From an uncultured Parasphingopyxis sp. (GTDB lineage: Bacteria; Pseudomonadota; Alphaproteobacteria; Sphingomonadales; Sphingomonadaceae), in contig CAMYKP010000006.1 in the NCBI GenBank assembly GCA_947259005.1, positions 248,001-312,000 on the forward strand: a stretch of 64,000 bases of DNA, given 5' to 3'. The notes beneath the pieces were generated by a model. It saw only the letters and a list, made by a program, of their open reading frames with translations. It was not told where the DNA came from and ran no database searches. Both the position numbers and the translations under genes were made by a program. Shown here one piece after another: positions 9,041 through 48,585 of the stretch. Position 1 is the stretch's first letter; every line of letters begins with the position of its first letter.

Positions 9041-9063
9041 CCCTTTTCCGAACGTGAAAAGGG
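9041..9063. other. Perfect 8-bp stem-loop between rpmE and the next gene
   Basis: CCCTTTTC at 9041-9048 pairs with GAAAAGGG at 9056-9063 across a 7-base loop. No T-run follows, so it is not a classical rho-independent terminator. It could stabilise the rpmE message 3' end. Confidence 0.45.
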
Positions 9064-9097
9064 AAACACTGGCGTTCGCCATTCACAGGAGAGAAAC

Positions 9098-9328
9098 ATG
9101 GAAAACTGGGATACAGACGACGAGGGAAACCTCAAAGTGCATGTTTTCCGCGGCTATGAATCTGCGACAGCGCCCGGGCATGTCTTGCTGAGAATGCTCT
9201 ATTTCAGTCAGAACTCACACCTCCCGGCAAACACGCCCGAAGGTTTCCAGGTTACCCTCACTCCGGATATGGCGCGGAAATTCGCGGCCGACCTGCTGGA
9301 AAACGCCGACCAGGCTGAGAAGAGCTAA
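9098..9328 (+). CDS. Small conserved-looking protein of unknown function
   Basis: The product is 76 residues, acidic, without signal peptide or membrane segment. GGAGAG a few bases before the ATG is a good ribosome binding site. The C-terminal part (LTPDMARKFAADLLENA) looks like a short amphipathic helix ending a small alpha/beta domain. The overall shape faintly recalls the BssS-like family, but no diagnostic motif supports that name. It ends 20 bases before the left attachment repeat, so it belongs to the host side. Confidence 0.6.
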   Translation: MENWDTDDEGNLKVHVFRGYESATAPGHVLLRMLYFSQNSHLPANTPEGFQVTLTPDMARKFAADLLENADQAEKS

Positions 9329-9347
9329 AACCACACCGAAAAACGAG

Positions 9348-9361
9348 TGGCGGACAGGGTG
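9348..9361. repeat. Left attachment-site repeat (tRNA-Ser 3' end copy)
   Basis: This is an exact 14-base copy of the tRNA-Ser 3' end found at 23248-23261. It also forms the left arm of an inverted repeat: GGCGGACA at 9349-9356 and TGTCCGCC at 9360-9367, with a 3-base spacer. Confidence 0.85.
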
Positions 9362-9468
9362 TCCGCCTAATTCCTGTTCAATCGAAACCTATGTGGTTCG
9401 GTGATGCCAGTCTTTTAAAGGCATTTTGCCGATTCATTATCCACATCCTGTTCAATGCCGTTCAGTTG

Positions 9469-9514
9469 CGTTCCCATAAAACCGGTGTAATATCGGGGAA
9501 CGTTTATGGGAACG
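9469..9514. repeat. Candidate recombination arm sites left of the integrase gene
   Basis: CGTTCCCATAAA at 9469-9480 is a perfect inverted copy of TTTATGGGAACG at 9503-9514. Within it GGGAACG occurs twice in direct orientation (9496-9502 and 9508-9514), 12 bases apart. A related 20-base element lies at the other end of the island (23186-23205). The placement between attachment site and integrase start fits integrase arm-type or excisionase sites; this is inference. Confidence 0.55.
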
Positions 9515-9575
9515 GCTTGCATTTTGGGTAGATTGGCTGACTGAGGCGAGTTCGATTCCGCGTAAGGGAATCATA

Positions 9576-10823
9576 ATGCCTCGCAAACTTAGCAACGCGC
9601 TCACCTCCCTGTCGGTCAAAAATGCCAAACCCGGTCGTCATGCGGACGGCGGCGGACTGCATTTGCTCGTTAAGAAAAGCGGCGCGCGATCTTGGGTTTA
9701 TCGCTTTATGCTCAACGGGCGCTCGCGCGATGTTGGCTTAGGTGCGGCGGCTGGGCTAGATGCCATATCGCTGACCGATGCGCGCGACACTGCGGCGGCG
9801 CTTCGCCTGAAAGTGAAAGCAGGGATCGATCCGCTTGAAGAACGCGACAGGAAGGCCGCTCAGGCGCTTTCAGAGGCTCAGGCAGCCCATGTGGCTGGAA
9901 TAACGTTTGAGGCCGTTGCCAAGGCTTATATCGCTGCCAACGAAGGTAGCTGGCGCAATCCGAAGCATCGCCAGCAATGGCGCAATACACTCGCCACATA
10001 TGTCTTTCCGGTGATCGGCGAAATGCCAGTCGGCGAGATTGGCACGGCAGATGTGCTGACAATCCTGGAGCCGATCTGGCAAGAAAAGCCCGAAACTGCC
10101 AGTCGCATTCGGGGGCGGATCGAAACTGTGCTCGATGCTGCCAAGGCGCGCGGCTACCGTGAAGGCGAGAACCCCGCGCGCTGGCGCGGCCACATCGCAC
10201 AAATCTTGCCTGCCCGCCCACGACTGACACGCGGTCATCACAAAGCCATGCCCTATGAAGCGATTCCCGAATTTTTCGGAAAGTTGCACCAGCGCGAAGC
10301 TGTTGCCGCTTTGGCACTGGAGTTTCTAATTTTGACCGCAATGCGCACGAGCGAAGTGATTGGCGCGCAATGGAGTGAGATCGATCTGGAGAAAGCGCTC
10401 TGGACGATACCAGCCGAACGCATGAAGGCTGCGAAAGAACATCGCGTGCCACTATCGCCGCGCGCGATTGAGATCTTAGAAGGCGTGAAGCCATTTGATT
10501 CCAAGTGGCTTTTTTCTGGCGCGAAGGGCGGCAAACTGTCGGGAATGGCAATGTCCATGTTGCTGCGCCGTATGAAACAAGACTGCACAGTGCATGGGTT
10601 TCGCTCCGGCTTCCGTGATTGGGCAGCCGAATGCACCGGATATGCCCATGAAGTATGCGAAATGGCGTTGGCGCATGTGATTGGCAACAAGGTAGAGGCA
10701 GCTTATCGGCGCGGCGATCTATTTGAAAAGAGGCAGAGGCTCATGACCGATTGGGCTCTCTACTGTACCAATGGCAGCGCGGCTGGGTCTGAAATTTCGC
10801 CAATCCGGGGAGCAGCGGCATAA
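9576..10823 (+). CDS. int: Tyrosine-type site-specific integrase
   Basis: This 415-residue integrase has an N-terminal DUF4102-like arm-binding region (KNAKPGRHADGGGLHLLV), a core-binding SAM-like domain at about 110-200 and a catalytic domain. The catalytic Arg lies in TAMRTSEV, the HxxR motif in HGFRSGFRDW, the second His in ALAHVIG, and the nucleophile Tyr in EAAYRRGDLF. It is predicted to cut and rejoin the 3' end of tRNA-Ser. The gene starts about 215 bases inside the left repeat and is transcribed away from that end. Full length and intact. Confidence 0.95.
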   Translation: MPRKLSNALTSLSVKNAKPGRHADGGGLHLLVKKSGARSWVYRFMLNGRSRDVGLGAAAGLDAISLTDARDTAAALRLKVKAGIDPLEERDRKAAQALSEAQAAHVAGITFEAVAKAYIAANEGSWRNPKHRQQWRNTLATYVFPVIGEMPVGEIGTADVLTILEPIWQEKPETASRIRGRIETVLDAAKARGYREGENPARWRGHIAQILPARPRLTRGHHKAMPYEAIPEFFGKLHQREAVAALALEFLILTAMRTSEVIGAQWSEIDLEKALWTIPAERMKAAKEHRVPLSPRAIEILEGVKPFDSKWLFSGAKGGKLSGMAMSMLLRRMKQDCTVHGFRSGFRDWAAECTGYAHEVCEMALAHVIGNKVEAAYRRGDLFEKRQRLMTDWALYCTNGSAAGSEISPIRGAAA

Positions 10824-45448: not shown

Positions 45449-46165
45449 ATGCCCAACGATCACAGCCGTCACAGCCCCAATATCGCGCTCCTGATCGACG
45501 CCGACAATGCCTCGCACCAGGGTATCGATCCGGTGCTGACCGTCCTTGCCGAGCTCGGAACGGTCAACATTCGCCGCGCCTATGGCAACTGGCGCAAACA
45601 GGGCCTCAAAAGCTGGGTCGACAAACTGCACCGCTACGGCATCGAGCCGCAGCAGCAGTTCGATCTGACCAAAGGCAAGAACGCCACCGATATGAAGATG
45701 ACGATCGACGCGATGGACCTCCTTTATTCGGAACGCGTCGACGGGTTCGGGATCATGTCGTCCGACAGTGATTTCATGCCGATGGCGATGCGCATCCGGC
45801 AGGACGGGCTTCCGGTATATGGCTTTGGCAGCAACAAGACGCCCGACGCCTTCAAACAGGCCTGCAGCCGCTTCATCGATGTCGATGCGCTGATCAAGGC
45901 GGAGAAAGGGGCTGGAGCGAGCGGCGGCAAAAGCGAGGTGGACGAAGAAATCGTCGCCCTGCTTATCGATGCCTATGACGCCGCGAAACGCGATGAAAAC
46001 GGCTTTGCAGCACTAAGCGCCGTCGGCCAGCGCGCGGGCAACCGTTCCAGCTTCGACGTCCGCAACTACGGCTATGCGCGGCTCAGCGATTTGATCGAAA
46101 CGATTCCGAATTTTCAAACGGAGAAGCGCGCCAATGGGCAGGTTTGGGTGAAGCGGCTGCGGTAG
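45449..46165 (+). CDS. NYN-domain RNase with OST-HTH/LOTUS domain
   Basis: The 238-residue protein has a NYN domain with LLIDADNASHQ, KNATDMKMTIDAMDLLYS and MSSDSDFMPMAMRI, the usual acid cluster. From about residue 150 the C-terminal OST-HTH/LOTUS-type part (EEIVALLIDAYDAAKRDENG and YGYARLSDLIETIPNFQ) probably binds RNA. The NYN-LOTUS pairing occurs in bacteria with proposed roles in RNA turnover. It is 16 bases after putP. A separate NYN protein without LOTUS is found in the island at 22.4-23.0 kb. Confidence 0.9.
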   Translation: MPNDHSRHSPNIALLIDADNASHQGIDPVLTVLAELGTVNIRRAYGNWRKQGLKSWVDKLHRYGIEPQQQFDLTKGKNATDMKMTIDAMDLLYSERVDGFGIMSSDSDFMPMAMRIRQDGLPVYGFGSNKTPDAFKQACSRFIDVDALIKAEKGAGASGGKSEVDEEIVALLIDAYDAAKRDENGFAALSAVGQRAGNRSSFDVRNYGYARLSDLIETIPNFQTEKRANGQVWVKRLR

Positions 46166-46315: not shown

Positions 46316-46343
46316 GTCATGCCGGACTTGATCCGGCATCCAG
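46316..46343 (+). repeat. REP-like palindrome, left copy
   Basis: This 28-base element contains ATGCCGGA-CTTGA-TCCGGCAT, an imperfect hairpin, between GTC and CCAG. It is the exact reverse complement of 46766-46793. It lies 18 bases before the GIY-YIG start at 46362. Confidence 0.85.
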
Positions 46344-46361
46344 AGCGGTTAGGCACAAGGC

Positions 46362-46691
46362 ATGTCAAAAGAACCCGCAGTCTATATTATGGCAAGCGGC
46401 CGCAACCGCACGGACTATACCGGCGTTACGTCCGATCTACCCAAACGCATCCACGAACATCGCTCAGGCACATATCCCGGTTTTTCAAAACGCTACGGCC
46501 TGAACCGCCTCGTATGGTTTGAAATGCACGATACCATGGAAACCGCCATCGCCCGCGAAAAGCAGATAAAGAACTGGAAGCGCGTGTGGAAACTGGAGCT
46601 GATTGAAAAGAACAATCCGCACTGGCACGACCTCGCTGAGAGCTTTGGCTTCGCGCCCCTACCCCAAACACCATCGTCACCCCGGGATTGA
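46362..46691 (+). CDS. GIY-YIG-domain nuclease
   Basis: The 109-residue protein is a single GIY-YIG catalytic domain: VYIMASGRNRTDYTGVTSDL as the paired strands (YIM...YTG in place of GIY-YIG), then the helix with Arg in LPKRIHEHRSG, a YGLNRLVWFE strand and catalytic Glu in METAIAREKQIKNWKR. It matches the short UPF0213/YhbQ-like group. The C-terminal residues and stop codon are encoded within a degenerate REP-like palindrome. Flanking inverted 28-bp repeats suggest that this gene and its repeats form a unit. Confidence 0.93.
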   Translation: MSKEPAVYIMASGRNRTDYTGVTSDLPKRIHEHRSGTYPGFSKRYGLNRLVWFEMHDTMETAIAREKQIKNWKRVWKLELIEKNNPHWHDLAESFGFAPLPQTPSSPRD

Positions 46692-46711
46692 TCCCTTTCC
46701 CGAATACTGTC

Positions 46712-46740
46712 GTCACTCCGGACTTGATCTGGAGTCCAGG
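46712..46740 (+). repeat. REP-like palindrome, middle variant copy
   Basis: This copy has ACTCCGGA-CTTGA-TCTGGAGT, in the same orientation as the left copy. Compared with the left one, two outer stem positions have changed on both arms together (AT-G to AC-T with C-AT to A-GT), keeping most pairing. An even more degenerate copy covers about 46673-46702 (GTCACCCCGGGATTGATCCC). Confidence 0.75.
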
Positions 46741-46765
46741 GCATCAGGCGATAACGCATTTGGCC

Positions 46766-46793
46766 CTGGATGCCGGATCAAGTCCGGCATGAC
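46766..46793 (-). repeat. REP-like palindrome, right inverted copy
   Basis: This is the perfect 28-base reverse complement of 46316-46343. It lies 13 bases before the end of the ettA gene. With the left copy it encloses the GIY-YIG gene. Confidence 0.85.
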
Positions 46794-46805: not shown

Positions 46806-48485
46806 CTACCGCGTCAGCTTCTTATAGCTCATCCGGTGCGGCCTGTCCGCCTCGTCGCCAAGCCGCCGCCGCTTGTCTTCCTCATAGCTCTCGAAATTGC
46901 CTTCGAACCATTCGACATGGCTGTCGCCTTCAAAGGCCAGGATATGCGTGGCGAGCCTATCGAGGAAGAAGCGGTCATGGGAGATGACCACGGCGCAGCC
47001 AGCGAAGCTTTCCAGAGCTTCTTCAAGTGCGCGCAGGGTTTCGACGTCGAGATCGTTGGTCGGCTCATCGAGCAGCAGCACATTGCCGCCCTCTTTGAGC
47101 ATCTTGGCCATATGAACCCGGTTGCGTTCACCGCCCGATAGCTGGCCGACCTTTTTCTGCTGGTCGGTGCCCTTAAAGTTGAAGGCGCCGACATAGGCGC
47201 GCGTCTGCACCTCATGCTTGCCGAAAGTGAAGATATCGAGCCCGTCGGAAATTTCTTCCCAGACATTATGATTGGGATCGAGCGCATCGCGGCTCTGATC
47301 GACATAACCGAGCTTGACCGTCTCGCCGATCTGGATCGAGCCTTCATCCGGTTCTTCCTGACCGGTAATGAGCTTGAACAGGGTCGTCTTGCCGGCGCCG
47401 TTCGGACCGATCACGCCGACGATACCACCGGGGGGCAGGCTGAACGTCAAGTCTTCGAAGAGCAGCTTGTCGCCATAGGCCTTGGTGAGGCCATTTGCTT
47501 CGATAACCTTGCCGCCAAGCCGTTCGGGCGTCTGGATGAGGATCTGCGCCTTGCCGGGCGTGCGGTTTTCCTGCGCTTCGACCAGTTCGTCGAACGCCTT
47601 GATACGCGCCTTGGACTTGGTCTGGCGGGCCTTGGGGCTCTGCCGGATCCATTGCAGCTCGTCCTGGATCGCCTTTTGCTTGCCGGCCTCGGTGCGTTCT
47701 TCCTGTTCGAGACGCTTGGCCTTTTTCTCCAGATATCCGGAATAATTGGCCTCATAAGTGTAATAGCGGCCGCGATCGAGTTCGAGCACCCAGTTCACGA
47801 CATTGTCGAGGAAATAGCGGTCATGGGTCACGAGAATGACGTTGCCGGTATAATCGACCAGATGCTTTTCGAGCCACGCAACGCTTTCGGCATCCAGATG
47901 GTTCGTCGGCTCATCGAGCAGCAGGATTTCCGGCTTTTCGAGCAGCAGGCGGCACAGCGCCACACGGCGCTTCTCACCGCCTGAGAGGCTTTCAACACCG
48001 CTATCGCCCGGAGGGCAGCGCAGAGCGTCCATCGCAATCTCAAGCTGGTTGTCGAGCGTCCAGCCATCAACGGCGTCAATTTTTTCCTGAAGATCGCCCA
48101 TTTCTTCCATCAGCGCATCGAAATCTGCGTCTTCGGGCGGATCGGCCATCAGGCCTGAAATCTCGTTGAAACGGTCCACCAGGTCGGCAACGGGGCGCAC
48201 CCCGTCCATCACATTTTCCTTGACCGTCTTGTCCGGATCGAGCTCCGGCTCCTGTGCGAGATAGCCGACGCGGATCCCCTCGCCCGGCCATGCCTCGCCT
48301 GTAAAATCCGTATCGATCCCGGCCATGATCTTCATAAGCGTCGATTTGCCCGACCCATTGGGCCCAACGATACCGATCTTCGCATCCTGGTAGAATTGCA
48401 AATGAATCTGATCGAGCACCGGCTTGCGGGCACCGGGGAAGGTTTTGGTCATGCCCTTCATGACGAAGGAATATTGCGCGGCCAT
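46806..48485 (-). CDS. ettA: Energy-dependent translational throttle protein EttA (ABC-F)
   Basis: This 559-residue soluble ABC-F protein binds the ribosomal E site and gates translation by ATP/ADP ratio. It has two ABC units: Walker A GPNGSGKST and GPNGAGKTT, signatures LSGGEKRRV and LSGGERNRV, Walker B LLLDEPTNHLDAE and LLLDEPTNDLDVE. The start is set at the ATG giving MAAQYSFVMKGMTKTFPG; an in-frame ATG at 48557 would add an unlikely tail. Confidence 0.95.
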   Translation of the reverse strand: MAAQYSFVMKGMTKTFPGARKPVLDQIHLQFYQDAKIGIVGPNGSGKSTLMKIMAGIDTDFTGEAWPGEGIRVGYLAQEPELDPDKTVKENVMDGVRPVADLVDRFNEISGLMADPPEDADFDALMEEMGDLQEKIDAVDGWTLDNQLEIAMDALRCPPGDSGVESLSGGEKRRVALCRLLLEKPEILLLDEPTNHLDAESVAWLEKHLVDYTGNVILVTHDRYFLDNVVNWVLELDRGRYYTYEANYSGYLEKKAKRLEQEERTEAGKQKAIQDELQWIRQSPKARQTKSKARIKAFDELVEAQENRTPGKAQILIQTPERLGGKVIEANGLTKAYGDKLLFEDLTFSLPPGGIVGVIGPNGAGKTTLFKLITGQEEPDEGSIQIGETVKLGYVDQSRDALDPNHNVWEEISDGLDIFTFGKHEVQTRAYVGAFNFKGTDQQKKVGQLSGGERNRVHMAKMLKEGGNVLLLDEPTNDLDVETLRALEEALESFAGCAVVISHDRFFLDRLATHILAFEGDSHVEWFEGNFESYEEDKRRRLGDEADRPHRMSYKKLTR

Positions 48486-48585
48486 TGGTCGTTTACGCTC
48501 CGAATTTGGATAGTGGGAATCTGCCCGCGATGTAGGGACGATGGGTCGAATTGGCAAACACGTAAGCGCCCGTTAAGCGGAGCGG

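Follow-up and report, generated by a model that had tools for sequence, protein, structure and literature searches.

A small GIY-YIG nuclease gene flanked by inverted CGTC-type REP palindromes: a recurrent unit in Pseudomonadota and a probable enzyme partner for these repeats

Results

The locus and its palindromes

The window, by which we mean the whole stretch of 64,000 nucleotides analysed here from an uncultured Parasphingopyxis sp., carries a small GIY-YIG nuclease gene between two genes that served as synteny markers (Table 1); putP lies in the window as well. The intact palindromes around the nuclease gene fit the format of CGTC REPs, with an unpaired CGTC-type tag, an 8-bp stem, a 5-nt loop and an unpaired CCA tail. 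The palindrome on the 5' side, which starts 46 bp ahead of the nuclease start codon, is made up of a GTC tag, the 8-bp stem ATGCCGGA, the 5-nt loop CTTGA and the CCA tail. An earlier note on this DNA had described two 28-base elements as exact inverted copies, and reading of the sequence bears this out, since the two outer palindromes are exact reverse complements at 28 of 28 bases, with an extended pair of 32 nt at 97%. The variant palindrome that the note placed at 46712-46740 is present at 46711-46739, and the degenerate palindrome that it saw across the nuclease stop codon is indeed found there. The REP corresponding to this decayed copy is intact in two related genomes, G006 and G009, where it supplies the frame with its stop codon. 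A doublet equal in span to the one in the window occurs on contig C13 (locus L004) and at the orthologous locus in G009.

Table 1. Positions of the genes and palindromes at the nuclease locus of the window.
Feature	Position	Strand	Basis
NYN / OST-HTH gene, left neighbour, synteny marker	45449..46165	+	
CGTC-type REP palindrome, 5' side of nuclease gene	46316..46343	+	direct reading; geometry as in relatives
GIY-YIG nuclease gene, 109 aa, one domain	46362..46691	+	Pfam PF01541, E 1.9e-14
Decayed CGTC REP CGTCACCCCGGGATTGATCCC, spanning the nuclease stop codon (46689-46691)	46675..46695	+	direct reading
Variant CGTC REP, first half of 82-bp doublet, one stem mismatch	46711..46739	+	
CGTC REP, inverted exact copy of 46316-46343, second half of 82-bp doublet	46766..46793	-	
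ettA, right neighbour, synteny marker	46806..48557	-	

The nuclease protein

Alignment of six sequences, the window protein and five homologues, reveals that Y8, Y19, G21, R29, H33 and E66 are invariant, and they correspond to residues that are catalytic in the GIY-YIG superfamily. AlphaFold2, run with the same number of sequences (six), predicts a GIY-YIG-like model (mean pLDDT 83.5 and pTM 0.74 for the best of five, 61-69 for the mean pLDDT of the other four). Among solved structures, UPF0213 proteins, Slx1 and UvrC domains come closest, with 1zg2 as the best (phmmer E 2e-4); the fold search gave no match at E 0.001 or better, with 1zg2 at the top (Foldseek E 1.6e-3). The window protein is like the UPF0213 proteins 1zg2 and 1ywl, which we take to be YhbQ-like, in superfamily and in size, and differs from them in sequence, with 28% and 23% identity in the fold matches. 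The protein family is under purifying selection, with dN/dS values of 0.02-0.40 for the computable pairs, all of which are more than 62% identical.

A frame in Neisseria gonorrhoeae shows 59.1% identity over 88 aa to the window nuclease, and 16 dRS3-like sites lie within 3.3 kb around it. On pSymB of Sinorhizobium meliloti, CGTC palindromes lie on either side of the homologue, 49 bp ahead of its start and 39 bp past its end. Conjugative spread is not indicated, because the nuclease matches only 33 of 72,556 plasmid records and 32 of the 33 are typed as non-mobilizable; many among the matches listed are very large. The 2.17-Mb Neisseria gonorrhoeae record NZ_CP119140.1 (L228), listed as a plasmid, is probably mislabelled because it is chromosome-sized. 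Two other origins were considered and rejected. A GIY-YIG homing endonuclease does not fit a stand-alone 109-aa gene lying between two genes and holding one Pfam domain, as there is no intron, intein or extra domain, and a phage origin has a single weak phage match to its credit, with no PHROGs family at E 0.001.

Repeat copies in the genome of the window

The assembly to which the window belongs (G000; 2.45 Mb, rated 84% complete) contains further copies of the palindrome, for which the earlier note had suggested a whole-genome search. The 20-base REP core has 5 genome matches at up to 3 mismatches and its reversed control has 0, so the recurrence is not due to chance. Looser patterns give 5 CGTC-2 and 2 CGTC-1 matches, that is, about 7 copies, which is few. 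The genes beside the other copies (L003-L005) offered no useful lead. Besides its one small GIY-YIG gene, this genome gives a second GIY-YIG match, in a 644-aa frame on contig C7 that we take to be uvrC. There is no match to the Y1 transposase family (PF01797) in G000, and the Y1 loci of relatives have no tagged hairpin within 200 bp; RAYT-driven REPs were therefore rejected as an explanation for the genome of the window.

Hairpins cluster around the nuclease genes

We examined 60 genomes, the window's own and 59 relatives, and found a nuclease match at E 1e-5 in 38 of them, at up to seven separate places in one genome (G025). From the 109 nuclease matches, 60 regions of up to 20 kb with 64 genes were taken, mostly by rank, leaving out fragments, weak matches and some matches on short contigs. 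A second set of 64 genes came from the class, phylum and genome_contigs searches (10 loci together with the 53 loci L158-L210), of which L158, L187 and L197 belong to the window's family. A GTCA-tagged hairpin lies within about 200 bp of 48 of the 64 homologues from the order, on both sides in 29, and near 37 of the 64 homologues in the second set, on both sides in 17. By contrast, the eight control tags tested in each set were found near 0-2 and 0-1 of the 64 homologues, respectively, and GTAG-tagged hairpins near 0/64 and 1/64. Two detectors found no tagged palindrome at 32 of the 128 homologues, some of which are on short contigs. The clustering of palindromes around short GIY-YIG genes, proposed in advance as a check, is thus confirmed in both sets.

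The position and orientation of the hairpins are also recurrent. Over 75 genes, hairpin density is 4.1 per kb within 150 bp of the gene versus 0.04-0.14 per kb beyond 300 bp, an enrichment near nuclease genes of about 30- to 110-fold. Upstream copies (-70 to +20) are mainly on the plus strand (29/33 and 17/21 in the two sets) and downstream copies (-60 to +60) mainly on the minus strand (32/42 and 18/26), with the tags pointing outward from the nuclease gene. A CCA tail is present on 140 of 174 hairpins near homologues, and the tail was not among the search criteria. Around Y1 transposase genes, used as a control, a tagged hairpin was found in 3 of 17 loci, none of them within 200 bp. The ettA control gave a tagged hairpin in 5 of 30 loci, three of which are the window locus itself in G000, G006 and G009, leaving 2 of 27; 3 of the 30 loci were cut by contig ends and showed no hairpin anywhere.

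These results demonstrate that the nuclease-REP architecture recurs across Pseudomonadota, and the nuclease-REP unit with a RAYT-like layout and a GIY-YIG enzyme that the earlier note had suggested is real and widespread there. At L105 in G057 (about 9042-9950), two nuclease genes 578 bp apart stand in tandem, identical over 98 codons, within a tandem array of CGTC palindromes; this tandem pair is a recent duplication of the nuclease-REP unit.

Repeat numbers across genomes

Across the 60 genomes, CGTC copy number correlates with the count of nuclease genes (rho 0.61) versus a rho of 0.004 with the count of Y1 transposases, the p-values of these comparisons ignoring relatedness. By both patterns together, copies number 7 in the genome of the window and reach 79 in G007. 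At least 5 copies are present in 31 of the 38 genomes with the nuclease and in 6 of the 22 without it; the seven nuclease-bearing genomes with fewer than 5 copies were scored by the two patterns, which miss types with a 9-bp stem. No nuclease was detected in G044, which holds 52 CGTC-1 copies, or in G001, a draft of 240 contigs with 49 CGTC copies, and the repeats can therefore persist without the nuclease. In these two genomes the enzyme may have been lost, may have diverged or may fall in an assembly gap, or another protein may serve the repeats.

Nuclease clades and palindrome types

Hairpins were found at 86 loci, of which 49 have 5-nt loops, 31 have 4-nt loops and 6 fit neither class; these six and the 42 loci without hairpins were left unscored. 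None of the 80 classed loci mixes 4-nt and 5-nt loops, and 57 of the 80 hold at least two palindromes. On a protein tree of 128 proteins and 97 columns, which has many weak branches and from which matches shorter than about 60 residues were dropped, loop class requires 15 changes versus a mean of 24.6 (minimum 18) in 300 shuffles. When labels were shuffled within genomes, 15 or fewer changes arose in 4 of 500 shuffles, with eight genomes having both loop classes.

A further correspondence involves a starred clade of 9 proteins without simple hairpins. All 9 have a longer palindrome, GTCATTGCGAG...GCAATC, and the GTCATTGCGAG type is found at none of the 119 proteins outside this clade, which was chosen with the tree already in view. 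The wider pattern GTCATTGC...GCAATC matches 12 of the 128 genes, namely the 9 clade members and 3 of the other 119; the three outsiders are L129 (GTCATTGCGAACG) and L115 and L168, which have ordinary CGTC stems (GTCATTGCCGG). The Fisher p for this search is 5e-13 with one outsider counted and 1e-11 with all three. Cores of the TGAACTTGTTTCA type behave in the same manner, as all 14 loci that have them fall within one clade of 15 (support 92, not starred). As judged from sequence, nuclease clades and palindrome types match.

In L092 and L109, an apparent 5-nt-loop CGTC stem is nested in the loop of some GTCATTGCGAG palindromes, giving the impression of one palindrome type copied inside another.

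States of the unit at orthologous sites

Comparison of orthologous sites reveals the unit in several states. Beside ettA, it is intact in the genome of the window, its G006 copy is frameshifted and its G007 copy lies at a contig edge. Empty sites at this locus, which the earlier note had asked about, do exist: in G001, G002, G005 and G008 the NYN gene and ettA have no unit between them. In G009, only the doublet is left at ettA, and it follows a frame, AEDLGFDPLPASSPRT and then a stop, that resembles the end of the G006 nuclease, AEDLGFDLLPSSSPRA with its stop. By eye, AEDLGFDPLPA and AEDLGFDLLPS agree at 9 of 11 positions, in frame into the REP stop, and at the DNA level the scores are 14 and 16 against shuffle means of about 15, so that the shuffles are not exceeded. 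Because its protein frame resembles the end of the G006 nuclease, G009 most likely lost the nuclease gene by deletion, leaving what appears to be a scar. A count of open frames (123/128 of at least 80 aa) was set aside as generous, since it passes the frameshifted G006 copy.

The spacer between the NYN gene and the nuclease in G006 (L049) also holds a GTCATTGCGAG-type inverted pair and, by eye, an apparent acylphosphatase gene, neither of which was seen in the spacer of the window. In G015, ettA is followed some 430 bp downstream by a nuclease from another clade (L137, about 9183-9455), so that the surroundings of ettA house two nuclease clades in different genera. No tagged hairpin was detected next to this nuclease, and the 19-kb region gave neither an NYN nor a putP match.

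At a second locus, G008 has a nuclease gene between palindromes and G006 has the gene with a doublet on its 5' side only, while G000 and G002 have clean short spacers and G009 a lone palindrome. The second-locus nucleases of G006 and G008 are sisters on the protein tree. In G001 and G007 (L153 and L154), the spacer that houses the unit in G006 and G008 contains an inverted repeat, TTCGGGCTGAGCCTGTCGAAGCCC...CCTTCGACAAGCTCAGG. At a third locus, a stretch of about 1.1 kb in G005 contains a GTCATTGCGAG-clade nuclease together with two doublets of the GTCATTGCGAG type, where G009 has 8 bases between the flanks that it shares with G005. Queries with doublets of about 90-100 bp found matches at many sites in several members of the genus, with as many as 65 in one genome; one of the queries also contains another repeat. 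Dispersed doublets of this kind are presumably akin to REPINs. Read from the sequences compared, the site histories fit gain, loss or both, and none of them demonstrates transposition.

Discussion

This study shows that small GIY-YIG nuclease genes and CGTC-type palindromes occur together in many genomes, and a nuclease family of this kind has reportedly been described. A 2025 study in Nature Communications is reported to have presented Ssn, a family of site-specific single-strand GIY-YIG nucleases from Neisseria that has thousands of homologues and a repeat named NTS, and the Neisseria Ssn is reported to modulate recombination or uptake of single-stranded DNA. We take the Neisseria gonorrhoeae frame matched here to be the published Ssn. 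The window nuclease resembles this family in being a small stand-alone GIY-YIG protein that keeps the putative catalytic residues, and also in that nuclease and repeat types go together, with the cognate repeat near the gene and elsewhere in the genome. It differs in pairing with a 5-nt-loop CGTC-2 palindrome instead of the 4-nt-loop dRS3 type. By this comparison, the window nuclease most likely belongs to the Ssn family. Since Ssn with its cognate repeats has reportedly been published already, the nuclease-repeat idea is less new than the earlier note supposed. As far as the literature searched goes, the present data add the connection to CGTC REPs, a match of nuclease and palindrome types clade by clade, and loci at which the unit is gained or lost to different degrees. 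No paper holding GIY-YIG together with 'repetitive extragenic palindromic' was found in the literature searched, and among the matches listed no title joins a GIY-YIG nuclease with REPs. One candidate, PMC10928387, was rejected as a paper on GIY-YIG and repeats, as the terms co-occur by accident in the accessible part of it.

The palindromes themselves belong to a described class. In the accessible part of the work by Di Nocera et al. (2013, PMC3733652), CGTC REPs have a CGTC tag, a tail that is mostly CCA and AT first in the stem, with stems of 8 bp in families 1-2 and 9 bp in families 3-4 and loops of 4 nt in family 1 and 5 nt in families 2-4. The window palindromes, with an 8-bp stem starting with AT, a 5-nt loop and CCA, have the CGTC-2 format. 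The same part of that paper reports no dedicated or associated transposase for CGTC REPs, whereas here a GIY-YIG nuclease is associated with them, and the term GIY does not occur in the text of PMC3733652. The arrangement also recalls the REPtron, in which, according to the accessible part of Nunvar et al. (2010, PMC2817692), a RAYT gene is flanked by two inverted REPs. The window gene likewise lies between two inverted REPs, but its enzyme is a GIY-YIG nuclease, not an HUH Y1 transposase, and the tag is CGTC, not GTAG. The doublets are dispersed in the relatives studied here, which would be a likeness to REPINs, the subject of PMC3116915.

How might such a unit work? We hold with good confidence that it is a REP-nuclease pair, in which the nuclease is predicted to target its own flanking hairpin as a site-specific single-strand nuclease. 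The small GIY-YIG protein would recognise its own CGTC-type palindrome as a hairpin in single-stranded DNA, such as may arise on the lagging strand, during recombination or in incoming DNA, and would nick the hairpin at a fixed place. Repair or recombination at the nicked sites would make the repeats change along with the enzyme; it may also duplicate or rearrange REP doublets and, less often, the entire unit. We infer binding, single-strand specificity and nicking from the predicted fold and from the reported Ssn work. The proposal in the earlier note that the enzyme acts on the palindromes finds indirect support in the matching of clades and palindrome types.

Beyond this pairing, one may ask what the unit does. 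A first possibility is that the nuclease is a selfish mobiliser of REPs which, in the way proposed for RAYTs, would spread doublets and the REP-gene-REP unit through cut-and-copy. In keeping with such spread, one genome can hold several nuclease copies at different places, such as the seven in G025, doublets with nearly the same spacing recur at many sites across several genomes, the second locus has the gene in G006 and G008 where G000 and G002 show clean short spacers, and G057 has identical copies in tandem. However, no target duplication or fresh insertion is seen at the compared loci, the absence of the gene at ettA in G009 is apparently a deletion scar, and two genomes are rich in REPs although no nuclease gene was detected in them. 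Since the copies of G006 and G008 pair as sisters on the tree, loss explains the second locus as well as gain does. We consider this role possible, if short of probable.

A second possibility is that the nuclease and its repeats serve the host by modulating recombination or the uptake of single-stranded DNA. In favour of this role, a Neisseria homologue with dRS3-like repeats around it is 59% identical to the window protein, and the nuclease family is under purifying selection. Against it, the gene is patchy (38/60 genomes), its G006 copy is frameshifted and G009 bears what seems to be a scar; such uneven presence, with occasional breakage or loss, would be uncommon for a gene whose function is needed. 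A host-serving role may exist but seems rather unlikely.

The palindromes could also act only as terminators or mRNA stabilisers of the nuclease gene. The 3' hairpins could act in RNA, and many REPs are plausibly transcribed according to the accessible part of the paper by Di Nocera et al. (PMC3733652), but copies also lie upstream of the start codon, the CCA tail is conserved outside the stem (140/174) and the palindrome type tracks the protein clade, which a terminator role does not predict. We regard this explanation as very improbable. That the nuclease happens to adjoin some of the REPs that are common between genes has a chance close to nil. The intergenic location of REPs and the tagged hairpins in 5/30 ettA loci (2/27 without the window locus) would favour such passive neighbourhood, but the enrichment of about 30- to 110-fold, the recurrent geometry, the tag specificity and the matching of clade and type contradict it.

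The pairing of nuclease and hairpin is the reading that we prefer, and it bears on a gap in the biology of REPs. The GTAG half of REPs has a known enzyme partner in the RAYTs, and the CGTC half was stated in 2013 to have none, as far as the accessible part of PMC3733652 goes. The GIY-YIG enzyme is probably the partner of CGTC REPs, a repeat family once thought partnerless. A bolder extension, which we offer tentatively and at less than even confidence, is that CGTC REPs are served throughout Pseudomonadota by clade-matched GIY-YIG single-strand nucleases forming autonomous units, in which nicking of hairpins would drive the dispersal of doublets, as a non-HUH counterpart of the RAYT/REPIN system. 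The 4-nt loop, the 5-nt loop and the GTCATTGCGAG type make a specificity table available for in vitro work, and the loci with and without the unit allow asking whether the enzyme spreads, keeps or removes the repeats. REPs are widespread small bacterial repeats, and the clade-by-clade match gives a concrete candidate enzyme for the CGTC REPs among them.
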